Source: Myxococcota bacterium (GTDB taxonomy: Bacteria; Myxococcota_A; UBA796; UBA9615; JAKLKC01). Taken from it: a DNA stretch of 64,000 bases. Below the pieces are notes generated by a model. It was given only the letters and a program-made list of their open reading frames with translations. It was not told the DNA's origin and made no database searches. Of this stretch, positions 1-63,019 are shown one piece after another. Every line of letters starts with the position of its first letter. The stretch's first letter is position 1. Position numbers and translations under genes: made by a program. The stretch is from contig JAKLKC010000007.1 in NCBI GenBank assembly GCA_023150875.1, forward strand, positions 1 to 64,000, given 5' to 3'.

Positions 1-3000
1 GGTCTCCCCCCTCCTCGGTGAAGCCGTCGCCGTCGTCGTCCGAGGCGGCGGTGCCCTCGTCCATCCGGCCGTCACAGTCCTCGTCCCGGCCGTCCGCCGT
101 CTCGACGGCGCCGGGATGGATCGTCGGCTCGCCGTCGTGGCAGTCGCCTCCGTCCGTCGTGAACCCGTCGCCGTCGGCGTCTCCCGCTCCGCCGCCGGGG
201 ACGCCGTCACAGTCCCGGTCGAAGCCGTCCCCGGCCTCGGGGGCGCCGGGATGGACGGCGGGATCGGAGTCGTCGCAGTCCCCCGCGCAGGCGGCGTGGC
301 CGTCCCCGTCGGCGTCCACCGGCCCCCGGGCCGTGGTGCAGCCGTCGGCCCGGATCCGCGCGTCCAGGGGGGGCTCTCCCTCGAACACCACCCGGAGGAC
401 CACCTCGGGAGGGCCTCCCACCGCGGCCCCCTCGTAGCGGACGACGACGTCCCGCTCCTCCCCGGCCTCGACGGTGTGGCGGGCGAGGTCCGTCATCAGG
501 CGCCAGCCGGGCCCCGAGGGCAGGAGGGAGGCGGAGAGCACCCGGGCCGGGGCGATGGACTGGTTGCGGAGCCCCAGGGTGACGGTGGTCGCCCCCCCGG
601 CGCCGGCGTCCAGGACCACGAGGGGAGGCGCGAACTGGAGGCCCCCCTTGCGGGCGGCTCCCTGGAGGGTGACGACCTCGGCGCCGTCGTCCGCCGTCAG
701 GTGCAGGGTCCCGGAGCGCTCCCCCGCCGCCCGGGGCAGGAACCGCACGCCGATCTCCGCCTCCTCGCCGGGCCCGAGGGCGGCGGGCAACGCCGACGAC
801 AGGGTGAAGTTGGAGGGGAGTCCGCCGTCCCCGTCGGCCTCGATGGCCGCCCGGAGGGCCGTGGCCGCGCTCCCGGCGTTCCGTACCCGCACCACCGCGT
901 CCACGGGGACGTCGGGGCGGGTGGGCTCGAAGGTCACGGCGTGGCCCAGGACCACCAGGGCGGATGTGGGCTCCCCGGCGGCGGGCTCCGGCGCGCACCC
1001 CCCGCCCAGTAGGGTCGCCAGGGTGAGGAGGGTCGACGGCTTGGGGCGTGGGGCACGGGACACCGGTGCAGAGCCCGCGGCGCGCCTCCCCAACCCGAAG
1101 AGGGCGGCGAGGAGCAGGATGGCGTGCCCCCCACCGCGGGGAGGGCCGGGAGCCGCGGCGCATCCCGCGCTGCCCGCCGAGAGACGCTGCTCGGAGAGCG
1201 CCACGTCCACGCCGGTGTCGCACCCCCCGTCGGGGGTGCCGTCGCAGTCCTGGTCGACCCCGTCGTCGCAGTGATCGGCGCCTCCGGGCAGGCTGAAGGG
1301 ATCGGTGTCGTCGCAGTCCCCGGCGTCCTCGGAGAAGCCGTCGCCGTCGTCGTCGGAGGCGGCGGTGCCCTCGTCCACGACGCCGTCGCAGTCGTCGTCC
1401 CGCCCGTTCGCGGCCTCGCCCGCGCCCGGGTGGACCTCGGGATCGGCGTCGTCGCAGTCCCCGGCGTCCTCGGAGAAGCCGTCGCCGTCGTCGTCGGAGG
1501 CGGAGGTGCCCTCGTCCACCTCCCCGTCGCAGTCCTGGTCGCGTCCGTCGGGCGCCTCGGGCGCCCCCGGGGCGACCGCGGGATCGGTGTCGTCGCAGTC
1601 CCCGGCACCCTCGGAGAAGCCGTCGCCGTCGTCGTCGACGAGGGGAGTGCCCTCGTCGGCGATCCCGTCGCAGTCCTGGTCGCGCCCGTCGGCGACCTCG
1701 GCGGCGCCGGGCCGGACGGAAGCGTCGGTGTCGTCGCAGTCCCCGCCCCTCTCCGAGAACCCGTCGCCGTCGTCGTCGTACGCCTCCGTCCCCTCGTCGA
1801 CCGTCCCGTCGCAGTCGTCGTCGACGCCGTTGGCGACCTCGGCGGCGCCGGGATGGACGAGGGGATCCGAGTCGAGGCAGTCGTCGCCCCCCGCCCAGGC
1901 GGGCAGGTGGCCGTCTCCGTCCCCCTCGGCCAGGTCGGCGCCATCGCAGTCCTCGTCGACACCGTTGGCGGGGACCTCCGCCCCGCCGGGCCGGACGTCG
2001 GCCCGGGCGTCGTCGCAGTCGCCGTCGCAGGCGGAGTACCCGTCCCCGTCGGCGTCCAGCTCGGCGGGGGAGAGCGCGCCGTCGCAGTCCTCGTCCACTC
2101 CGCCGCACGCCTCCGCCGCCCCGGGGCGCCTCGCGGGATCGGCGTCGTCGCAGTCCCCGCCGCAGGCCGTGGATCCGTCCCCGTCGGCGTCGTGCCCCTC
2201 GTCCACCGCGCCGTCGCAGTCGTCGTCGACGCCGTCGCAGACCTCGGGAGCGCCCGGGAAGACGTCGGCCCGGGAGTCGTCGCAGTCGCCGGCGCACGAG
2301 GCGAACCCGTCCCCGTCGGCGTCGTGCCCCTCGTCGACCTCGCCGTCGCAGTCGTTGTCGGTGGCGTCGCAGGTCTCGGGGGCGCCCGGCAGGACATCGG
2401 CCCGCCCGTCGTCGCAGTCGCCGGCGCAGGGGCCGACCCCGTCGCCGTCCCCGTCGGGCGCGTCGTCGGTGACGCCGTTGCAGTCGTCGTCCCGGGCGTT
2501 GCAGGACTCCCGCGCCCCGGGGTAGACGCCGGACCGGGCGTCGCTGCAGTCCCCGGCGCACGTGGTGTAGCCGTCGCCGTCCCGGTCGTATCCCTCGTCC
2601 ACGGCGCCGTCGCAGTCCTCGTCGACGAAGTCGCAGGACTCGTCCGCGCCGGGGTGGACGGTGGGATCGGCGTCGTCGCAGTCGCCGCCGCATGAGGTCG
2701 CCCCATCGCCGTCCGCGTCGAAGTCCTCGTCCACGGCCCCGTCGCAGTCCTGGTCGACACCGTCGCACACCTCCGCCGCGGAGGCGTGCCGGCTGGGATC
2801 GGCGTCGTCGCAGTCGGAGCAGGTGGGGGTCCCGTCCCCGTCGCCGTCGAAGCCCTCGTCGACCTCGCCGTCGCAGTCCTGGTCCGCGCCGTCGCAGGTC
2901 TCGGGCGCCCCGGGAAGGACGTCTGCCCGGGAGTCGTCGCAGTCGCCGCCGCACGAGAGCACGCCGTCGCCGTCCTGGTCGAAGTCCTCGTCGATCAGGC

Positions 3001-4726
3001 CGTCGCAGTCCTGGTCCACGCCGTCGCACGCCTCGGGCGCGGCGGGGTGGCGCGTGGGATCGGCGTCGTCGCAGTCCCCGGCGCAGGGGGAGGAGCGGTC
3101 GCCGTCGGCGTCGTCCTCCTCGTCCACGGCCCCGTCGCAGTCGTCGTCGATGGCGTTGCAGACGTCCTCCGCCCCGTCGTGGACCGAGGGATCCCCGTCG
3201 TCGCAGTCCCGCGGCCCCCCGGCGGCCCCGGGCGCCTCGCCCAGCACCAGGGCGGCCAGCACCGGCGAGAAGCCGAAGGCGTCCAGGTACTCGGCGTTGA
3301 GGGTGGTGGCGAGGACCCCCCCCGCGGCGGGGAGCGAGGCCACCAGGAGAGGGTGGCCGTCGGGGCCCAGCAGGGGGGCTCGCAGCGCGGCGGGGGCGGG
3401 CGTGAAGGCGAAGTCCGCCGCCCAGGTGGCCCGCGAGAGGCGATCGGCGTCCAGGTCGTAGGGCCGGGACAGCCACGGGGCATCGGGATCGTCCAGGGAG
3501 ACGGTGCTGGTCGATCCGGGGGCGGTCGTCAGGCCCGCGGGCCAGGCGGGGGAGATCCCGCCGTTGCCGCCGTCGTCCCCCGCCAGGACCACCAGGGCGC
3601 GGCAGCGGTCGGCCCCCGCCCAGGCCTCCAGCTCGGGCCAGGAGGGCCCGAGGGCGTCGTAGACGGCCTGGCTCTGGTCCGACGCCACGACGATCCGGTC
3701 GTAGCTCGAGAGGTCGGACAGGGGCAGGTCCCCGGCGCCCAGGCGGTCCCAGGGGATCCCCCACTGCTCCAGGAGGGAGGCGATCCGGTCCAACCCCCCG
3801 AAGGGGAGGGCGTCCTGGACGAGACCGACCCGCTGGGGGCGGGCCGGACAGAGGGAGGTCCCGGTGGAGTCGCAGGCGAGGTGGCCGTCCCCGTCCTCGT
3901 CCACCTCGTCGCTCCCGGGCAGGCCGTCGCAGTCGTCGTCCATGGCGTTGCAGCGCTCGGGGGCGCCGGGGTAGCTCCCGGGATCCAGGTCGTCGCAGTC
4001 GCCGTCGCAGTCCCGGAAGCCGTCCCCGTCCCGGTCCAGGCAGGCGCCCGGCGGGGAGATCCGGACGGCGTACCCGTCGTCCAGGGACCCCCAGCCGCAG
4101 GAGACCTGCAGCGAGGCTCCCGGGCCGCCGGCGCCGACGGCGGCGGCGCCCCCGAAGTCGTCGTCGTCGGGCGCGCCGAGCCCGAAGGCCACGTCCTGGT
4201 AGTGGAACTCGATGGTGCCGTCGGGGAAGAGGACCACCTCGAAGGTGACGTTCCCGGTGCCCGCGTAGCGTCCGGTGCGGAACCACTCCACGACGAACCG
4301 GCCCTCACCGGCGCCGTCGACCTCCCCGAGCCACACGCTGTCGCTCCGGGGCCAGAGGTCGCTCCACAGGGGCGCGATCACGTCGCCGCCGGCCTCGGTC
4401 AAGGGGCAGACCGCCCGCCAGTCCGGCTCGAGGCCGTCGAACGAGAGGGTGCCGTTGGAGCCCACGATCACCGACTCGTGGACGGCGCCGCGGTAGGGGA
4501 AGGGGAAGGGGAGGGGGATCTCCGCCCAGTCCTCCTCGCCGAGGGCGATGGGGGTGGGGGCCAGGAGGTACTCGTACACGGGCCCCCCCGCCTCATCGGA
4601 GTCCATCCAGGAGTAGCCCTCCTCGTCGGGGCCGCCCCGAGCCCCGAAGGTCGGTGGCGAGGCGGCGAGCCCGAGGGCGGCGGCGAGGAGGGCGAGGCGA
4701 GCGCGGCGAGGCAGGGGCGGCGGCAT
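1..4726 (-). CDS. giant MopE-repeat surface protein (3' end beyond window)
   Basis: Partial: the frame is open through the left edge, giving about 1575 codons. The ATG at 4726 begins a signal peptide (two Arg, then a Leu/Ala-rich core, residues 1-24). A beta-rich domain (about 30-225) resembles the N-terminal domain of the second giant gene at 59.6 kb. From Cys229 come MopE-type repeats (PF11617-like: DCDD..P..HPGAPE.CDGVDQDCDG); I count 16 before residue 1186 and at least two more near the left edge. Repeats 1 and 2 are separated by about 215 residues resembling a glutamine-amidotransferase/ThuA-like fold. Cys1189, a Gly-rich stretch, a Leu/Ala helix and GRR (to about 1213) look like a MYXO-CTERM sorting tag but are internal. 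They are followed by LLTLATLLGGGC, a lipobox with Cys1244, then HYDIN/'choice-of-anchor'-like beta domains. Acidic Asp/Cys repeats suggest Ca2+ binding on the cell surface. Function unknown. Confidence 0.85.
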   Translation of the reverse strand, partial: MPPPLPRRARLALLAAALGLAASPPTFGARGGPDEEGYSWMDSDEAGGPVYEYLLAPTPIALGEEDWAEIPLPFPFPYRGAVHESVIVGSNGTLSFDGLEPDWRAVCPLTEAGGDVIAPLWSDLWPRSDSVWLGEVDGAGEGRFVVEWFRTGRYAGTGNVTFEVVLFPDGTIEFHYQDVAFGLGAPDDDDFGGAAAVGAGGPGASLQVSCGWGSLDDGYAVRISPPGACLDRDGDGFRDCDGDCDDLDPGSYPGAPERCNAMDDDCDGLPGSDEVDEDGDGHLACDSTGTSLCPARPQRVGLVQDALPFGGLDRIASLLEQWGIPWDRLGAGDLPLSDLSSYDRIVVASDQSQAVYDALGPSWPELEAWAGADRCRALVVLAGDDGGNGGISPAWPAGLTTAPGSTSTVSLDDPDAPWLSRPYDLDADRLSRATWAADFAFTPAPAALRAPLLGPDGHPLLVASLPAAGGVLATTLNAEYLDAFGFSPVLAALVLGEAPGAAGGPRDCDDGDPSVHDGAEDVCNAIDDDCDGAVDEEDDADGDRSSPCAGDCDDADPTRHPAAPEACDGVDQDCDGLIDEDFDQDGDGVLSCGGDCDDSRADVLPGAPETCDGADQDCDGEVDEGFDGDGDGTPTCSDCDDADPSRHASAAEVCDGVDQDCDGAVDEDFDADGDGATSCGGDCDDADPTVHPGADESCDFVDEDCDGAVDEGYDRDGDGYTTCAGDCSDARSGVYPGARESCNARDDDCNGVTDDAPDGDGDGVGPCAGDCDDGRADVLPGAPETCDATDNDCDGEVDEGHDADGDGFASCAGDCDDSRADVFPGAPEVCDGVDDDCDGAVDEGHDADGDGSTACGGDCDDADPARRPGAAEACGGVDEDCDGALSPAELDADGDGYSACDGDCDDARADVRPGGAEVPANGVDEDCDGADLAEGDGDGHLPAWAGGDDCLDSDPLVHPGAAEVANGVDDDCDGTVDEGTEAYDDDGDGFSERGGDCDDTDASVRPGAAEVADGRDQDCDGIADEGTPLVDDDGDGFSEGAGDCDDTDPAVAPGAPEAPDGRDQDCDGEVDEGTSASDDDGDGFSEDAGDCDDADPEVHPGAGEAANGRDDDCDGVVDEGTAASDDDGDGFSEDAGDCDDTDPFSLPGGADHCDDGVDQDCDGTPDGGCDTGVDVALSEQRLSAGSAGCAAAPGPPRGGGHAILLLAALFGLGRRAAGSAPVSRAPRPKPSTLLTLATLLGGGCAPEPAAGEPTSALVVLGHAVTFEPTRPDVPVDAVVRVRNAGSAATALRAAIEADGDGGLPSNFTLSSALPAALGPGEEAEIGVRFLPRAAGERSGTLHLTADDGAEVVTLQGAARKGGLQFAPPLVVLDAGAGGATTVTLGLRNQSIAPARVLSASLLPSGPGWRLMTDLARHTVEAGEERDVVVRYEGAAVGGPPEVVLRVVFEGEPPLDARIRADGCTTARGPVDADGDGHAACAGDCDDSDPAVHPGAPEAGDGFDRDCDGVPGGGAGDADGDGFTTDGGDCHDGEPTIHPGAVETADGRDEDCDGRMDEGTAASDDDGDGFTEEGGD

Positions 4727-4928
4727 GGGCGGCGGGCGGGGATCGGGCTCCGGATCTCCGCGTCCTCCGGCCTGCCTTTCGGCCCGGGATGGTCCGCCCT
4801 TGACCCGGCGAGGTGGGGGGCGGCTTGCCAGGCGCCCGCCGAGGTCGATCCTGGTCGGGTCGCCTCGGTGCGTTGGGCAGTCCCGCAGGCGTTCCCGTGC
4901 CTCTTCCCCTTCCCCCCGCCTGGGGAGC

Positions 4929-4976
4929 GGGCTCGGGCACGGGCTCGGGCACGGGCTCGGGCACGGGCACGGGCTC
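4929..4976. repeat. GGGCWC hexamer array, 8 units
   Basis: Eight tandem hexamers alternate between GGGCTC and GGGCAC. It is one member of a dispersed intergenic family (also at 7118, 27151 and 33108, with a short stub near 20672). It lies between two divergent genes. Confidence 0.9.
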
Positions 4977-5011
4977 GAAGGGGCGACGACGATGGCGGGG
5001 CCCTGGACGGA

Positions 5012-5041
5012 TTGCGGAGGAGGGGCGCCGCGGAATACGAT
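5012..5041 (+). promoter_or_regulatory. possible sigma-70-type promoter of the MBL gene
   Basis: TTGCGG (5012-5017), an 18-nt spacer and TACGAT (5036-5041). Transcription would begin at about 5048, right at the ATG at 5049, and no Shine-Dalgarno sequence precedes that ATG, so a leaderless message is possible. Prediction by eye only. Confidence 0.4.
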
Positions 5042-5048
5042 CCCGCCC

Positions 5049-5969
5049 ATGGCCGCCCTCGGGACCGCCCTCCACCGCCTGTTCACCCGTGCCGTCCCCC
5101 GGGACCTGCTCCACCGCGGCGGGTCGGACGACCCGTCCCCCGCCGGCGTGGACGAGGGGGTGGTGTTCCGGTTCCTGGGCACGGCGGGCTTCGAGGCGAG
5201 GGCGGCGGGGGAGTCCCTGCTGGTGGACCCCTACCTCTCCCGGCCGGGCCTATGGCGGACCCTCACCGCCCCGCTCGTGCCGGATCCCGAGGCGGTCCGG
5301 GCGCGGGTGAACGCCGCCCACCACGTCTTCGCCGGCCACTCCCACCACGACCACTCCTTGGACGTGCCGGAGATCGCCCGCCAGACGGGGGCACGGGTCT
5401 ACGGGTCCCCCACCACCCTCCACCTGGCCCGGGCCCAGGGAGCGCCCCCCGACCTGCTGCACCCGTTCCGGGCCGGCGACGAGCTGCGGGCCGGGGCGTT
5501 CCGGGCGCGGGTGGTGGAGTCCTGCCACGGCCTGGTGGCCTTCGGCCGCGTGCCCCTGCCCGGCGCCCTCCACGCGCCGCCGGAGGCCCCTCCTCGGCTG
5601 CGCCACTACCGCGAAGGGGGCACCTTCGGCTTGGTGTTCGAGGCGGCGGGCGTCACGTTCATGCACCTCGGGAGCGCGAACTTCCTTCCCGCGACGCTGG
5701 AGGTGCCGCCTCCGGACGTGCTCATGCTGTGCATCGTCGGACGGCAGAAAGTCCCGGACTTCACGCGCCGGGTCCTGGAGGCGCTGCGCCCCCGCTACCT
5801 GCTCCCCTGCCACTACGACGACTTCGCGCTCCCCTTCGACGAGCCTATGCGTCAGCTCCCGGGGGTGGCCCTGGAGCGCTTCATGGTGGAGGCGGAGAGG
5901 GCGAGGCCGGAGACGAAGGTGGTGCTCCTGGACTTCTTCCAGGAGTTCAGGGTGCGGGCGAACCGGTAG
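5049..5969 (+). CDS. metallo-beta-lactamase-fold hydrolase (UlaG/RomA-like)
   Basis: A 306-residue probable cytoplasmic metal-dependent hydrolase. The fold is shown by VVFRFLGTAGFE near residue 38, a strand ending LLVDPYLS (57-63), and the HSHHDH metal-binding motif at 97-102 (HxHxDH). Further His/Asp residues follow in ESCHG and the late CHYDDF motif. This layout fits the UlaG/RomA/NAPE-PLD-like branch rather than true beta-lactamases; the substrate cannot be read from sequence. The ATG at 5049 is chosen because the fold begins soon after it; a longer upstream frame is low-complexity Arg/Gly/Ser. The 3' end overlaps the convergent DHH phosphoesterase gene by 23 bp. Upstream is a hexamer array shared with the divergent MopE-repeat gene. 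Confidence 0.8.
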   Translation: MAALGTALHRLFTRAVPRDLLHRGGSDDPSPAGVDEGVVFRFLGTAGFEARAAGESLLVDPYLSRPGLWRTLTAPLVPDPEAVRARVNAAHHVFAGHSHHDHSLDVPEIARQTGARVYGSPTTLHLARAQGAPPDLLHPFRAGDELRAGAFRARVVESCHGLVAFGRVPLPGALHAPPEAPPRLRHYREGGTFGLVFEAAGVTFMHLGSANFLPATLEVPPPDVLMLCIVGRQKVPDFTRRVLEALRPRYLLPCHYDDFALPFDEPMRQLPGVALERFMVEAERARPETKVVLLDFFQEFRVRANR

Positions 5970-7431: not shown

Positions 7432-8718
7432 ATGCACCGCCCCTCTCCTGGAACCGTCCCGTGGGCGCTGGCCGGCCTGCTCGCCGTCCTTGCACCGGCC
7501 GCCGCCCGGGCCCACGGCGACCTTCCCCAGTCCACCGACGTGGTCTTCGAGGACCCGTCGGACCCCCTGCCCCTGGTCCTCACCACCTTCGGCGTCCTTG
7601 TGCCCCGGGCCGGGGACGATTGGGAGTGGGTCTGCGAGGACGTCGTGGGGTCCGGGGGGATCTCCGACTTCGAGGCCCTGCCTTCGGGGACCTGGCTGTT
7701 CGGCACCGCCCAGGGCCTGTGGCGCAGCGTCGACCGCTGCTCCTGGGAGCGGGTGGGTGGAGCGGTGGAAGACCTTGATTTCACTCAGGTATCCCGGGAC
7801 GTCGCCGAACCCGACGTGGTGTGGGCGGCGACCGCCAGCGGCGGCCGGGACAACGCCCTCTGGCGCTCCGGGGACGGAGGCTCCACCTTCGCGGCGTTCG
7901 CCTCCTTCGGCGAGGGCTCGACGGTCCGGGGCTTCCTCCAGGGTCCCGACGGCGCGAGCTTCTGGGTCTTCGGCTGGCGGGACCTCTCGCCCTGGCTGTG
8001 GCGCTCCGAGGACGGCCTGGTCTTCGACGAGCACCCCCTCCAGCCCATGGCGCCGGGGACCTCGGTGTACCCCCTGGGACTGGATCCCGCAGACCCCTCC
8101 GTCGCCTACGTCGCCTTGCGGGTCCTGGACCCTCCCCACGACGAGCTGGGAAGCGTGGCGGCCGACGGGACGATCGAGGCGTTGCTGGAGGTGCCCGACG
8201 AGATCGTCGCGTTCGCGGCGGGACCGGAGGAGGGGCGGATGGTCGCGGGGGGGCGGTACGCCGGGCTCTACGCCACGGCCGACGGGGGCGCGACGTGGAG
8301 CGGCCCCGACGACGCCGTCGAGGCGGGCTGCCTGGTGGACCGCGGAGGGGTGCGCTACCGGTGCACCCACCCCTTCGCCGACGGTGCCTCGGTGATGGCC
8401 GCGCTGGCGGGGGGCGGCGAGCTCCAGCCGGTGCAGGACTTCGCGGACGTGTGCCGCCCCTACGAGTGCCCGGCGGGCACCGAGGTGGCGGAGGTGTGCG
8501 GCCCCCTGTGGGAGGCGACCCGGGAGGAAGCCGGCCTGTGCCTGGGCGAGGCGGAGCAGGAGACCCCCGCCCCCGATCCGGGCTGCGATGGCGGTGGCTG
8601 CGCGGCGGCCGGCGGAGCGGAGCCCGGGGCCGGCACCCTCGCCCCCGCGCTGCTCCTGGGCCTGCGACGCCGCGCTCCCCCTGCGTCCCCGCGGGCGGCC
8701 GGGCCGAGGATCGGGTAG
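7432..8718 (+). CDS. exported beta-propeller (BNR/sortilin-like) protein with MYXO-CTERM-like tail
   Basis: A 428-residue protein with a clear signal peptide (hydrophobic core at 10-24, ending AAARAHG). The body has repeated blades typical of BNR/sortilin or photosystem-stability-factor-like propellers: WRSVDRCSWERV, WRSGDGGSTF, WRSEDGLVF and YATADGGATW, each with a Ser/Ala-x-Asp-x-Gly-x-x-(W/F) Asp-box. Cys pairs follow near 330-385. The C-terminus has Cys/Gly residues (CDGGGCAAAGG), a short Leu-rich helix and RRR, which resembles a MYXO-CTERM sorting tag. It is probably surface-exposed or periplasmic; ligand unknown. The ATG at 7432 is directly followed by the signal peptide. The YfhO-like gene starts 5 nt after its stop, so the two are likely co-transcribed with tyrS. 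Confidence 0.75.
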   Translation: MHRPSPGTVPWALAGLLAVLAPAAARAHGDLPQSTDVVFEDPSDPLPLVLTTFGVLVPRAGDDWEWVCEDVVGSGGISDFEALPSGTWLFGTAQGLWRSVDRCSWERVGGAVEDLDFTQVSRDVAEPDVVWAATASGGRDNALWRSGDGGSTFAAFASFGEGSTVRGFLQGPDGASFWVFGWRDLSPWLWRSEDGLVFDEHPLQPMAPGTSVYPLGLDPADPSVAYVALRVLDPPHDELGSVAADGTIEALLEVPDEIVAFAAGPEEGRMVAGGRYAGLYATADGGATWSGPDDAVEAGCLVDRGGVRYRCTHPFADGASVMAALAGGGELQPVQDFADVCRPYECPAGTEVAEVCGPLWEATREEAGLCLGEAEQETPAPDPGCDGGGCAAAGGAEPGAGTLAPALLLGLRRRAPPASPRAAGPRIG

Positions 8719-59557: not shown

Positions 59558-62500
59558 GTGCTCGTGCCGCGCTCCTCGGCTGCGTTCCTCGCCACCCTCC
59601 TCGCCGCCCTCGCCCCGGCGCTCCCCGCCCGGGCCGGAGGGGGCCCCGATGCCTACGGCTACACCTGGCTCGACTCCCTGGACCCCGGTGGCCCCGCCTA
59701 CGACTCCGGGAGCCAGCCGCCCTGGGCGGGGGGCGGTCTGTGCGAAGACGAGTGGTACACCGTCAACATCGGCTTCACGTTCCCGTTCTACGGACAGGAC
59801 TACTCCAAGGCCGTGATCTCCGCCAACGGCGCCCTGTACCTCTCGAACTCCACGGTGAACACGGCCGCCGGGGGCGACGACGCCAACGCCTGCCCCCTCA
59901 CCGCCGCCTCCCGCCCGCGGATCGCCGCCCTGTGGGACGACTACTTCGGGAACAACGAGTACGTGCTCTGCGGCGGGAGCACCCTGTTCATCACGTCGAT
60001 CATCGGCTGGGCCACAGCCGGGGCCGCGGGGAGCCGGGTCTTCGAGCTCTCCTGGATCGACAACGAGCACTTCTCGTGCGGGACGAACGGCGCGACCTTC
60101 ACGCTCAAGCTCTTCGAGGGGACGGGGGTGGTGGAGGTCCACTACCAGGACGTCACCCTCGGGAGCGCCACCTGTGACGGCGGGGCCTCGGCCACGGTGG
60201 GGATCTCCGACGCCGCGGCCCCCTCGGGCACCGGGAGCGCGCTCCAGGTCGACTGCGGCGCGGCGGGTCTGGTCGCGGCGGGCTACGCCGTGCGCTTCGT
60301 CCCCCCCGGGGCGGGGTGCGCCGACGCCGACGGGGACGGTCACGAGTCCTGGGACTGCGGCGGCGACGACTGCGCCGACACGGCGGCCTCCATCCACCCC
60401 GGCGCCGCCGAGGCGTGCAACGGGATCGACGACGACTGCGACGGGGGGATCGACGAGGGGTTCGACGCCGACGGGGACGGCGCCTCGTCCTGTGGCGGCC
60501 TGCCGGACTGCTGGGAGGGGGATCCCGGGACCCACCCGGGGGCGGCGGAGGTCGCGGACCACGTCGACAACGACTGCGACGGGGTGGTGGACGAGGGCAC
60601 CGCCTCCTACGACGACGACGGGGATGGCTTCACCGAGGCCGGGGGCGACTGCGACGACGCCGATCCCGGGCGCCACCCGGGGGCTCCGGAGTCCCCGGAC
60701 GGCGTGGACGACGACTGCGACGGCGTCGTCGACGAGGGGACCGCCGCCTGGGACGACGACGGAGACGGCTTCAGCGAGGACCAGGGGGACTGCGACGACT
60801 CCGACCCCGGGGCGTGGCCCGGGGCGGCGGAGGTGGCGAACGGCGCCGACGACGACTGCGACGGGACCGCCGACGACGGCCTCGGGGACGGCGACGGGGA
60901 CGGGCGCCTGGCCCCTGCGGACTGCGACGACGCCGATCCCGGGGTCCACCCGGGGGCGGCGGAAGTCCCCAACGGCGTGGACGACGACTGCGACGGCCTC
61001 GTGGACGAGGGCACCGCCGCCCGGGACGACGACGGGGACGGCTTCAGCGAGGACCAGGGGGACTGCGCGGACGCCGACGCCTCCGTCCGGCCCGGTGGGA
61101 AGGAGACGGAGAACGGCGTCGACGACGACTGCGACGGGGTGGTGGACGAGGGCACCGCCGGCTCCGACGACGACGGGGACGGGTTCACCGAGAGGGGGGG
61201 AGACTGCGACGACGGCGATCCCGGTGTCCACCCGGGGGCCGCCGAGGCCGCGGACGGCGTGGACGGCGACTGCGACGGGGTGGTGGACGAGGGGACTTCC
61301 GGCTACGACGACGACGGAGACGGGGTGAGCGAGGACGGGGGCGACTGCGACGACGCCGATCCGTGGTCGGCGGCGGGGCTCGCCGAGGTGTGCGACCGGG
61401 CCGACAACGACTGCGACGGCGACGTGGACGAGGGGTGCTCGGAGGGGGAGGGGAAGGCGGAGGAGCCGGAGGGGGGCTGCGCCTGCGGGGCGGCCGGGGG
61501 ACGCGGCGGTGGCGCTGCGGGCGGCCTCGGGATCGGCCTGGCCGCGCTGGTCGCCCTGGGGCGGCGCCGACGGCTGGCGGGGGGCGGTGCGGGGCTGGTG
61601 GCGATGGGCCTTCTGGCGGGGAGCTGCGGCTCCGACATCGCCCTGGTGGAGGGGGAGGGGGCCCTCACCGTCACCCCCGGCGTGCTGGACCTGGGGGCGG
61701 TGCTGATCGGGGGAGAGGGGAGGGGGACGGTGCTCCTGGACAACACCGGCCGCGCCGAGGTGAACATCGCCAGCGTGTCGGTGCAGGGGGATCCCGACGC
61801 GGCCTTCGCGGTGGAGGGGGATCCCGGGGGGGCCCTGCCCCGGGGGGAGGGCCTGGAGGTGGCGGTGCGGTTCGTCCCCGGGTCCGCGGGGCTGTTCGAG
61901 GCGGTCCTCTCCATCAACTCCGACGCCCCGGAGACCCCCCACGTGGAGGTGCTGCTCCGGGGGCAGGGGGCCTCGTCGCGGCTGGTGGTCTCCCCCCCGG
62001 CGCTGGACTTCGGGCTTGTGCCTCCGGGGGACGAGGTCTCGGCGGCGCTGACCCTGGCCGCGGAGGGGGAGGTCGCCGTCGAGGTCGACGCGCTGGAGCT
62101 GGAGGATGCCTCGGAGGCCTTCCGGCTGGTCCTGCCGGGCTCGGTGGGGGAGGCCCCCTTCGCGGTCCCGGCGTGGGGCGAGGTGGAGGTCCAGGTGTGG
62201 TTCGCGCCAGGGGACGACGGGCCGGCGGAGGCGCAACTCCGCGTGTCGTCAAGCGATCTGGCCTCGCCCGAGGTCCTCGTGCCCCTGCTGGGGAACTCCT
62301 GCGAGGAGGGGACGGCGGCGGCGGCGGACGCCGACGGGGACGGCTACTCGGCGTGCGCCGGGGACTGCGACGACGACGTGGGCCAGGCCCACCCCGGCGC
62401 CATCGAGACCCTGGACGGTCTGGACAACGACTGCGACGGGGTCGTGGACGAGGAGACGGAGGGCTACGACGACGACGGCGACGGCCACACCGAGGTGGCG

Positions 62501-63019
62501 GGGGACTGCGACGACACCGATCCCGGGATCCACCCGGGCGCGGCGGAGAGCGCCGACGGGGTGGACGAGGACTGCGACGGGATCATCGACGACGGCACCT
62601 CGGCCTACGACGACGATGGCGACGGAGCCTCGGAGGCGGGGGGCGACTGCGACGACGCCGATCCCGCGGTCCACCCCGGCGCCGCCGAGGCGGCGAACGG
62701 CGTGGACGACGACTGCGACGGCGTGGTGGACGAGGGCACGGAGGGCTACGACGACGACGGCGACGGCTTCAGCGAGCTGAACGGCGACTGCCACGACGCC
62801 GACCCCAGCATCCACCCCGGCGCCCCCGAGCTCGCCGACGGCGTGGACCAGGACTGCGACGGCGCGGTGGACGAGGGCACGGCGTGGGGGGACGACGACG
62901 GGGACGGCTTCGCCGAGGCGGGGGGCGACTGCGACGACACCCGGGCGACGGTCCACCCCGGGGCGACGGAGGTCGTCGGCAACGGGCGGGACGACGACTG
63001 TGACGGGGAGGTGGAGTGA
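59558..63019 (+). CDS. giant MopE-repeat surface protein
   Basis: 1153 residues from GTG 59558 (GGGGAGG upstream). A signal peptide (residues 1-24) leads to a beta-rich domain (about 30-250; IGFTFPFYGQDYSKAVISAN, WDDYFGNNEYV) with paired Cys. Eight MopE-type repeats follow (about 255-630; e.g. DCDDADPGVHPGAAEVPNG), then Cys-x-Cys and a Gly-rich stretch, a hydrophobic helix (GLGIGLAALVALG) and RRRR, i.e. a MYXO-CTERM-like tag at about 641-673, then LVAMGLLAGSC, a lipobox with Cys690. After this come two HYDIN/choice-of-anchor-like beta domains (ALTVTPGVLDLGAVLIGGEG and LVVSPPALDFGLVPPGDE) and five more MopE repeats to the end. It is the same architecture as the gene at the left edge. Its role on the cell surface is unknown. 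Confidence 0.88.
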   Translation: MLVPRSSAAFLATLLAALAPALPARAGGGPDAYGYTWLDSLDPGGPAYDSGSQPPWAGGGLCEDEWYTVNIGFTFPFYGQDYSKAVISANGALYLSNSTVNTAAGGDDANACPLTAASRPRIAALWDDYFGNNEYVLCGGSTLFITSIIGWATAGAAGSRVFELSWIDNEHFSCGTNGATFTLKLFEGTGVVEVHYQDVTLGSATCDGGASATVGISDAAAPSGTGSALQVDCGAAGLVAAGYAVRFVPPGAGCADADGDGHESWDCGGDDCADTAASIHPGAAEACNGIDDDCDGGIDEGFDADGDGASSCGGLPDCWEGDPGTHPGAAEVADHVDNDCDGVVDEGTASYDDDGDGFTEAGGDCDDADPGRHPGAPESPDGVDDDCDGVVDEGTAAWDDDGDGFSEDQGDCDDSDPGAWPGAAEVANGADDDCDGTADDGLGDGDGDGRLAPADCDDADPGVHPGAAEVPNGVDDDCDGLVDEGTAARDDDGDGFSEDQGDCADADASVRPGGKETENGVDDDCDGVVDEGTAGSDDDGDGFTERGGDCDDGDPGVHPGAAEAADGVDGDCDGVVDEGTSGYDDDGDGVSEDGGDCDDADPWSAAGLAEVCDRADNDCDGDVDEGCSEGEGKAEEPEGGCACGAAGGRGGGAAGGLGIGLAALVALGRRRRLAGGGAGLVAMGLLAGSCGSDIALVEGEGALTVTPGVLDLGAVLIGGEGRGTVLLDNTGRAEVNIASVSVQGDPDAAFAVEGDPGGALPRGEGLEVAVRFVPGSAGLFEAVLSINSDAPETPHVEVLLRGQGASSRLVVSPPALDFGLVPPGDEVSAALTLAAEGEVAVEVDALELEDASEAFRLVLPGSVGEAPFAVPAWGEVEVQVWFAPGDDGPAEAQLRVSSSDLASPEVLVPLLGNSCEEGTAAAADADGDGYSACAGDCDDDVGQAHPGAIETLDGLDNDCDGVVDEETEGYDDDGDGHTEVAGDCDDTDPGIHPGAAESADGVDEDCDGIIDDGTSAYDDDGDGASEAGGDCDDADPAVHPGAAEAANGVDDDCDGVVDEGTEGYDDDGDGFSELNGDCHDADPSIHPGAPELADGVDQDCDGAVDEGTAWGDDDGDGFAEAGGDCDDTRATVHPGATEVVGNGRDDDCDGEVE

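Follow-up and report, generated by a model that had tools for sequence, protein, structure and literature searches.

We found that a single open reading frame in the 64,000-nucleotide stretch of Myxococcota DNA analysed here (the window) carries in its middle a MYXO-CTERM sorting tag that passes directly into a lipoprotein signal peptide. We propose, with a probability of about 0.72, that this gene encodes a two-product surface polyprotein whose junction would form a membrane hairpin cut by a myxosortase-type protease and by LspA. Two anchored proteins made as one polypeptide, as an earlier sequence-only reading of this DNA had suggested, is the best-supported account of the gene. Several elements of this account can be read directly in the DNA, namely the continuous coding frame, both signals in the right order and orientation, the recurrence of the joint, the genes for the enzymes and, in another protein family, the conservation of the joint.

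A sorting tag and a lipobox within one reading frame

The fused frame begins at GTG 59558, just downstream of the stretch GGGGAGGG, and ends at a stop codon at 63017-63019 (59558-63019, + strand; 1153 aa), with a GC3 of 0.88-1.00 throughout. Residues 1-26 (59558-59635, +; ending in ALPARA, followed by GGG) form a predicted signal peptide of the signal-peptidase-I type for export of the N-half, and residues 8-22 within it are the most hydrophobic segment of the whole protein by hydropathy; here and throughout, signal peptides were called by rules on hydropathy and motifs instead of by a trained predictor. The N-half then carries MopE metal-binding-motif repeats (PF11617; approximately 60317-61432, +), a family that matches the whole protein in 13 stretches (402 bits, cut-off 27, E = 2.7e-123).

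The internal MYXO-CTERM tag (61469-61573, +) consists, by sequence and hydropathy, of the motif CAC (Cys641-x-Cys643, the Cys641 codon at 61478), the Gly/Ala-rich hydrophobic helix GLGIGLAALVAL and the arginine cluster RRRR (residues 669-672; 61562-61573). In a six-frame search of the genome the tag scored 20.3 bits with TIGR03901 against a curated cut-off of 20, and it was absent from an NCBIfam scan of the whole 1153-aa protein; it is a marginal but real match. The tag is followed by 481 in-frame residues and so is an internal variant rather than a standard C-terminal member of the MYXO-CTERM family. A second, internal signal peptide with the lipobox LLAGSC comes next (61574-61627, +; Cys690 codon at 61625-61627), with 18 residues separating the end of RRRR (672) from Cys690. 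Unlike the N-terminal signal of an ordinary lipoprotein, this cysteine sits 690 residues into the polypeptide, and RRRR is the only basic n-region available to the signal. The segment RRRR...LVAMGLLAGSC satisfies our lipoprotein signal criterion (strict lipobox plus h-region) and aligns with the starts of stand-alone lipoproteins, although Ala at -3 and the Gly-rich h-region are not ideal.

The C-half, 463 residues after Cys690, comprises two Ig-like domains, of which the first is of the choice-of-anchor D/HYDIN-like type (61658-61933, +; NF012200 78.8 bits, cut-off 45; PF22544 33.4 bits) and was modeled by AlphaFold as all-beta with a pLDDT of about 95, and the second is an ASH domain (61982-62272, +; PF15780 31.2 bits, cut-off 27). 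MopE repeats (PF11617) then reach the C-terminus (approximately 62303-63016, +). For the junction hairpin, the AlphaFold model gave no confident structure. Codon-position composition stays uniform through the junction (GC3 0.88-0.97, 0.96 overall), which indicates that one coding frame spans it. We found no in-frame ATG, GTG or TTG between Cys641 and RRRR; a GTG (residue 680) and an ATG (682) after RRRR stand only 10 and 8 residues before Cys690 with no basic residue, and are therefore useless as signal-peptide starts.

These results bear out most of what had been read from the letters of the gene. Its sequence, coordinates and residue numbers (Cys641/643, RRRR, Cys690), counted from GTG 59558, proved exact, and the MYXO-CTERM-like tag placed at residues of about 641-673 exceeds the TIGR03901 cut-off. 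The continuation said to run unbroken past Cys690 is indeed a run of Ig-like domains and MopE repeats of uniform GC3, and the statement that no start codon precedes RRRR holds, the two later ones being unusable.

A lipobox arising here by chance could be rejected given the background, as, of 28,734 stop-free 50-codon stretches drawn at random from the window, only 55 (0.19%) contained a lipobox with a hydrophobic stretch. The same combination followed none of 46 terminal tags read beyond their stop codons, and a lipobox followed 11 extended tags when judged by eye (9 of the 11 by the strict rule). Further, a scan of 194 coding-like frames (124,014 codons) showed no credible internal lipobox signal other than those that follow a MYXO-CTERM; the remaining matches, judged by eye, were ambiguous starts or ordinary membrane or soluble proteins. 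The frames came from loci chosen around MYXO-CTERM matches, so that the sample is not neutral. Within this tag-centred sample, we rejected a general tendency of the genome to fuse genes, since credible internal lipobox signals stood only behind MYXO-CTERMs.

Recurrence of the joint in the genome

The genome (6.92 Mb, 180 contigs) has 90 listed TIGR03901 matches, of which we read the first 70 and most of the weaker ones to their stop codons. Most tags end within about 15 residues past the Arg cluster, as a C-terminal tag should; at least about 15 frames among the 90 listed tags meet no stop past the MYXO-CTERM and continue into a second signal peptide. Eleven of these junctions are of the lipoprotein type (L071, L072 with two, L073, L074, L034, L077, L059, L061, and the window at 61.5 kb (+) and 1.1 kb (-)) and four are of an apparent signal-peptidase-I type (L035, L053, L084, L085). 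The C-halves are of at least six kinds, including Ig-like (anchor D/ASH) domains with MopE repeats, GH13 alpha-amylase, N-acetylmuramoyl-L-alanine amidase, OmpA/TraB-like proteins, TPR proteins and FG-GAP/MopE proteins, while two or more have no family assignment.

The second example in the window (995-1174, -) has an internal MYXO-CTERM at 1082-1174, which at 18.7 bits is just below the cut-off of 20, followed by a lipobox Cys at 995-997. It lies in a 1743-aa frame (2-5230, -) that runs off the start of contig C158, with a weak anchor-D domain after the lipobox. A contrast to the internal tags is offered by a weak 14.5-bit MYXO-CTERM at window positions 8587-8673 (+), which has the ordinary C-terminal position in a 1135-aa frame.

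Several other frames deserve mention in their own right. L034:2076-7592 (+) joins a GH15-containing tagged N-half to a GH13 alpha-amylase lipoprotein, so that two starch enzymes are predicted in one frame, the first part of which looks non-coding. Two MYXO-CTERM-like tags, one internal and one further on, occur in L073:3823-8508 (+), where the 110 residues that follow the second tag resemble the result of a frameshift or a lost stop, and L085:4838-9319 (-) has an internal tag and a second tag-like sequence at its C-terminus. The order adhesin, MYXO-CTERM, signal-peptidase-I-type signal and OmpA was seen in frames from three genera: L035:3135-6488 (+), L237:2-3040 (+) and L244:3666-8138 (-). 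We dropped four candidates for internal tags, L089 and L090 for lack of a tag Cys, and L060 and the second tag of contig C123 (L056) because their tails look out of frame.

A separate lipoprotein gene comes next after 6 of 46 terminal-tag genes, and in four of these six its start overlaps the stop codon of the tag gene, in some by 4 nt. These overlapping pairs (L004, L029, L065, L078) are possible precursors of fused frames. The genome thus gives a natural series of separate genes, overlapping genes and fused frames.

Relatives across the class and phylum

A first junction model (A1), built from seven anchor-D junctions, gave full-span, stop-free matches in other genera of the same order and class. 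We then ran a second model (A2, 15 junctions) on 60 genomes of the class and 285 of the phylum. Ordinary tags mostly cover only the first 40 to 50 positions of A2 and contain a stop, whereas fused ones reach its end without one. We read about 30 more fused junctions among the A2 matches; two of these come from genomes assembled as a single contig (8.05 Mb for G159, 5.05 Mb for G074). In five others (L246, L247, L248, L288, L289) the two halves are split by a stop codon behind the Arg cluster. The search that the sequence-only reading had proposed for homologues with the same internal order of tag and lipobox therefore places the fusion in more than one assembly. The fusion also occurs in named records, reached with a single-protein query, among them JAQXDW010000009.1 'Myxococcota bacterium' (L135/L238), PBPL01000189.1 (L124), SYKL01000385.1 (L128), BJHF01000073.1 (L141) and CAMBIK010000243.1 (L146).

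Most relatives of the C-half are stand-alone lipoproteins with the lipobox Cys at the place of Cys690. When 59 anchor-D domains were placed on a tree, the sister group of the window protein was made up of stand-alone lipoproteins; the fused state needs 8 changes, and branches with good support force at least 4 of these. The junction alignment keeps both signal cysteines in 15 of 15 rows. Since many genes of the genome share this join, and it recurs across the phylum, it seems to be an evolved means of producing surface proteins in pairs and not an error.

Two further observations were made among these genomes. L278:2887-18165 (-) (contig C33 of genome G101) encodes a very large fused protein, with a frame 5204 aa long that has a MYXO-CTERM and a lipobox in its interior. 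Six loci (L142, L146, L151, L153, L164, L195) come from MAG records titled 'Klebsiella pneumoniae' or 'Bifidobacterium breve' and have Myxococcota-typical MopE/anchor-D proteins, suggesting that the titles are probably wrong.

A fused family conserved across genera

Our search for a close relative of the window gene, needed for a selection test on its own junction, found none. A fused family unrelated to it (L276 and kin) occurs in 16 of 21 genomes of one bacterial family (f16), covering 11 genera, nearly always as frames of 1100-1500 aa without stops, and the tag Cys and the lipobox Cys are both kept in 19 of 19 junctions. In three species of one genus, the dN/dS of the L276-family junction was about 0.26, 0.26 and 0.14, as compared to N-part values of 0.16, 0.09 and 0.12 and C-part values of 0.07, 0.11 and 0.08. 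These low ratios (about 0.14-0.26), together with the invariant cysteines, indicate that the joint in this family is translated and constrained, slightly more loosely than its flanks. Signal sequences are usually somewhat less constrained than the parts that flank them.

Processing machinery and proposed mechanism

The genome encodes a myxosortase-family CPBP protease (L091:1390-2178, 263 aa; Mrt_core NF040914 109.9 bits, cut-off 100) with the motifs EELFYR (EExxxR) and HALAN (HxxxN), answering the earlier suggestion to look for a myxosortase gene. The protease scores below the MrtX cut-off (125 vs 180 bits) and also below the MrtP cut-off. MrtX itself is reported to cut MYXO-CTERM when co-expressed in E. 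coli (PMC11980579), a host with its own LspA. LspA (PF01252 135.6 bits, cut-off 25) and the type II secretin GspD (TIGR02517 538 bits, cut-off 351) are encoded as well.

From the scheme published for terminal tags (PMC11980579), where lipidation of the tag is itself a proposal, we infer the following membrane topology, cleavages and lipidation for the window protein. The N-terminal signal peptide would start Sec export of the N-half, and the hydrophobic helix of the tag would stop transfer, keeping RRRR on the cytoplasmic side. RRRR would then serve as n-region to the hydrophobic stretch that follows, which would restart export as a lipoprotein signal peptide, so that the junction would be lodged in the inner membrane as a hairpin. 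Lgt and LspA would then lipidate and cut at Cys690 to give a lipoprotein of Ig-like domains and MopE repeats, while the myxosortase-type protease would cut behind the tag Cys, and the N-half would be sorted to the cell surface by type II secretion; a short hairpin would remain behind. Tag-based sorting of the N-part had been part of the sequence-only reading and agrees with this scheme; however, that reading had the N-part released, and by the published model it would be left lipid-anchored at its C-terminal Cys (PMC11980579). The purpose of such a fusion may be to provide equal amounts and a shared site of assembly for two surface proteins.

More broadly, we see a slightly better than even chance that a reusable 'sorting-tag/signal-peptide hairpin' joint exists across the Myxococcota, giving two independently anchored surface proteins per frame that would be cut apart by two unrelated intramembrane peptidases, one of the myxosortase type and LspA.

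Alternative explanations

The same topology could belong to one uncut protein, whose two exported domains are held by a two-helix membrane hairpin while both signals stay unprocessed. For this, hydrophobic segments would be enough, and the window tag and lipobox are both modest matches. However, such a protein would have no need for the cysteines, yet both are invariant in all 19 L276-family homologues and all 15 alignment rows, and those relatives of the C-half that stand alone start as normal lipoproteins at this Cys; we consider this explanation unlikely. Less probable again is the use of one signal only, where, for instance, the tag has decayed and LspA cuts alone, or the reverse, which in the first case would give a lipoprotein and an N-half left on an uncut helix. 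Some tags do fall below the cut-off, as with the 18.7-bit tag at window 1082-1174, but tag Cys, helix and Arg cluster are retained beside the lipobox in nearly all junctions over long divergence.

We think it improbable to a high degree that ribosomes restart inside the frame and make the C-half independently. Several junctions do have an ATG, GTG or TTG in the tag helix (for example the ATG of L059, MARRGRGGAGPGRR..., and the GTG of the window junction at 1.1 kb), and the separate gene pairs with 4-nt overlaps would be in keeping with such initiation. However, in six genes, the window gene among them, the whole interval between tag Cys and lipobox lacks a usable start, and of 39 lipobox junctions 34 have no start from the Arg cluster onward. 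Nor would internal initiation account for every fused frame being free of stops. Least credible of all is an assembly or binning artefact, or a recent functionless loss of a stop codon. The genome is a 180-contig assembly, but the joint is found in about 15 of its genes, in many other genomes and in the two single-contig genomes, and the L276-family fusion is kept across 11 genera with constrained junction codons. Recurrence, single-contig genomes, junction composition and conserved homologues led us to reject assembly error or chance readthrough as a general explanation.

Relation to known systems and implications

Internal tags as such are already known, from MXAN_5598 and HVO_0405. Internal MYXO-CTERM motifs have been called rare, and one case, MXAN_5598 of Myxococcus xanthus, has been discussed as a probable gene fusion with a tag in the middle of its ORF, together with the proposal that its N-part is processed and anchored at the surface (Guo, Haft and Wall 2025, PMC11980579). 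The mid-ORF tag is shared with the frames described here, and L035, L237 and L244, fusions of the MXAN_5598/TraA-TraB type, also share the order adhesin, tag and OmpA. However, MXAN_5598 goes on into a beta-barrel/OmpA protein whereas the window gene goes straight into a lipoprotein signal, and internal tags, rare in that report (PMC11980579), are numerous, varied and conserved here. HVO_0405 of Haloferax volcanii is a fusion of two formerly separate genes with a central archaeosortase cleavage site, and its internal cleavage was demonstrated by immunoblot and depends on the archaeosortase pathway (PMC7157517). It resembles the window gene in being a two-gene fusion with an internal tag site, but its archaeal tag and enzyme are unrelated to myxosortase, it is a strain-specific fusion rather than a recurrent class, and, unlike the window gene, it has no lipobox after the tag mentioned in the text consulted (PMC7157517).

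Myxobacterial TraA/TraB is another comparison, with a MYXO-CTERM surface protein and then a second exported protein encoded by overlapping ORFs (PMC11980579). TraA and TraB are two separate overlapping genes, whereas the window gene lacks the stop and runs through both parts as a single frame. Eukaryotic viral envelope polyproteins work alike, in that one helix halts transfer, a following helix resumes it, and the products are then separated by enzymes. They share no homology with the fused frames, and are cut by host signal peptidase and other host or viral proteases as opposed to the myxosortase-type protease and LspA proposed here. In the literature searched, which left most subscription papers outside its reach, we found no description of the direct joint of tag and lipobox, its abundance in one genome, its spread through the phylum with many partners or its conservation. 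Within that literature the tag-plus-lipobox form, its recurrence and its conservation are new.

A recurrent, conserved class in the Myxococcota shows that the C-terminal tag need not be terminal, and gene callers and localisation predictors will misread such fused proteins. The fusions are good test substrates for myxosortase since a cut gives a large change in size, as HVO_0405 did for archaeosortase, and they let lipidation of the tag Cys, and the part of Lgt in it, be probed with a normal Lgt site in the same chain as a control. For the cell, fusion can force two surface proteins into equal amounts and a shared assembly site. To our knowledge, bacteria rarely make exported proteins as polyproteins; if the proposal is true, the reusable hairpin joint, with an Arg cluster that serves both signals, would amount to a general way for bacteria to produce exported proteins in polyprotein form.
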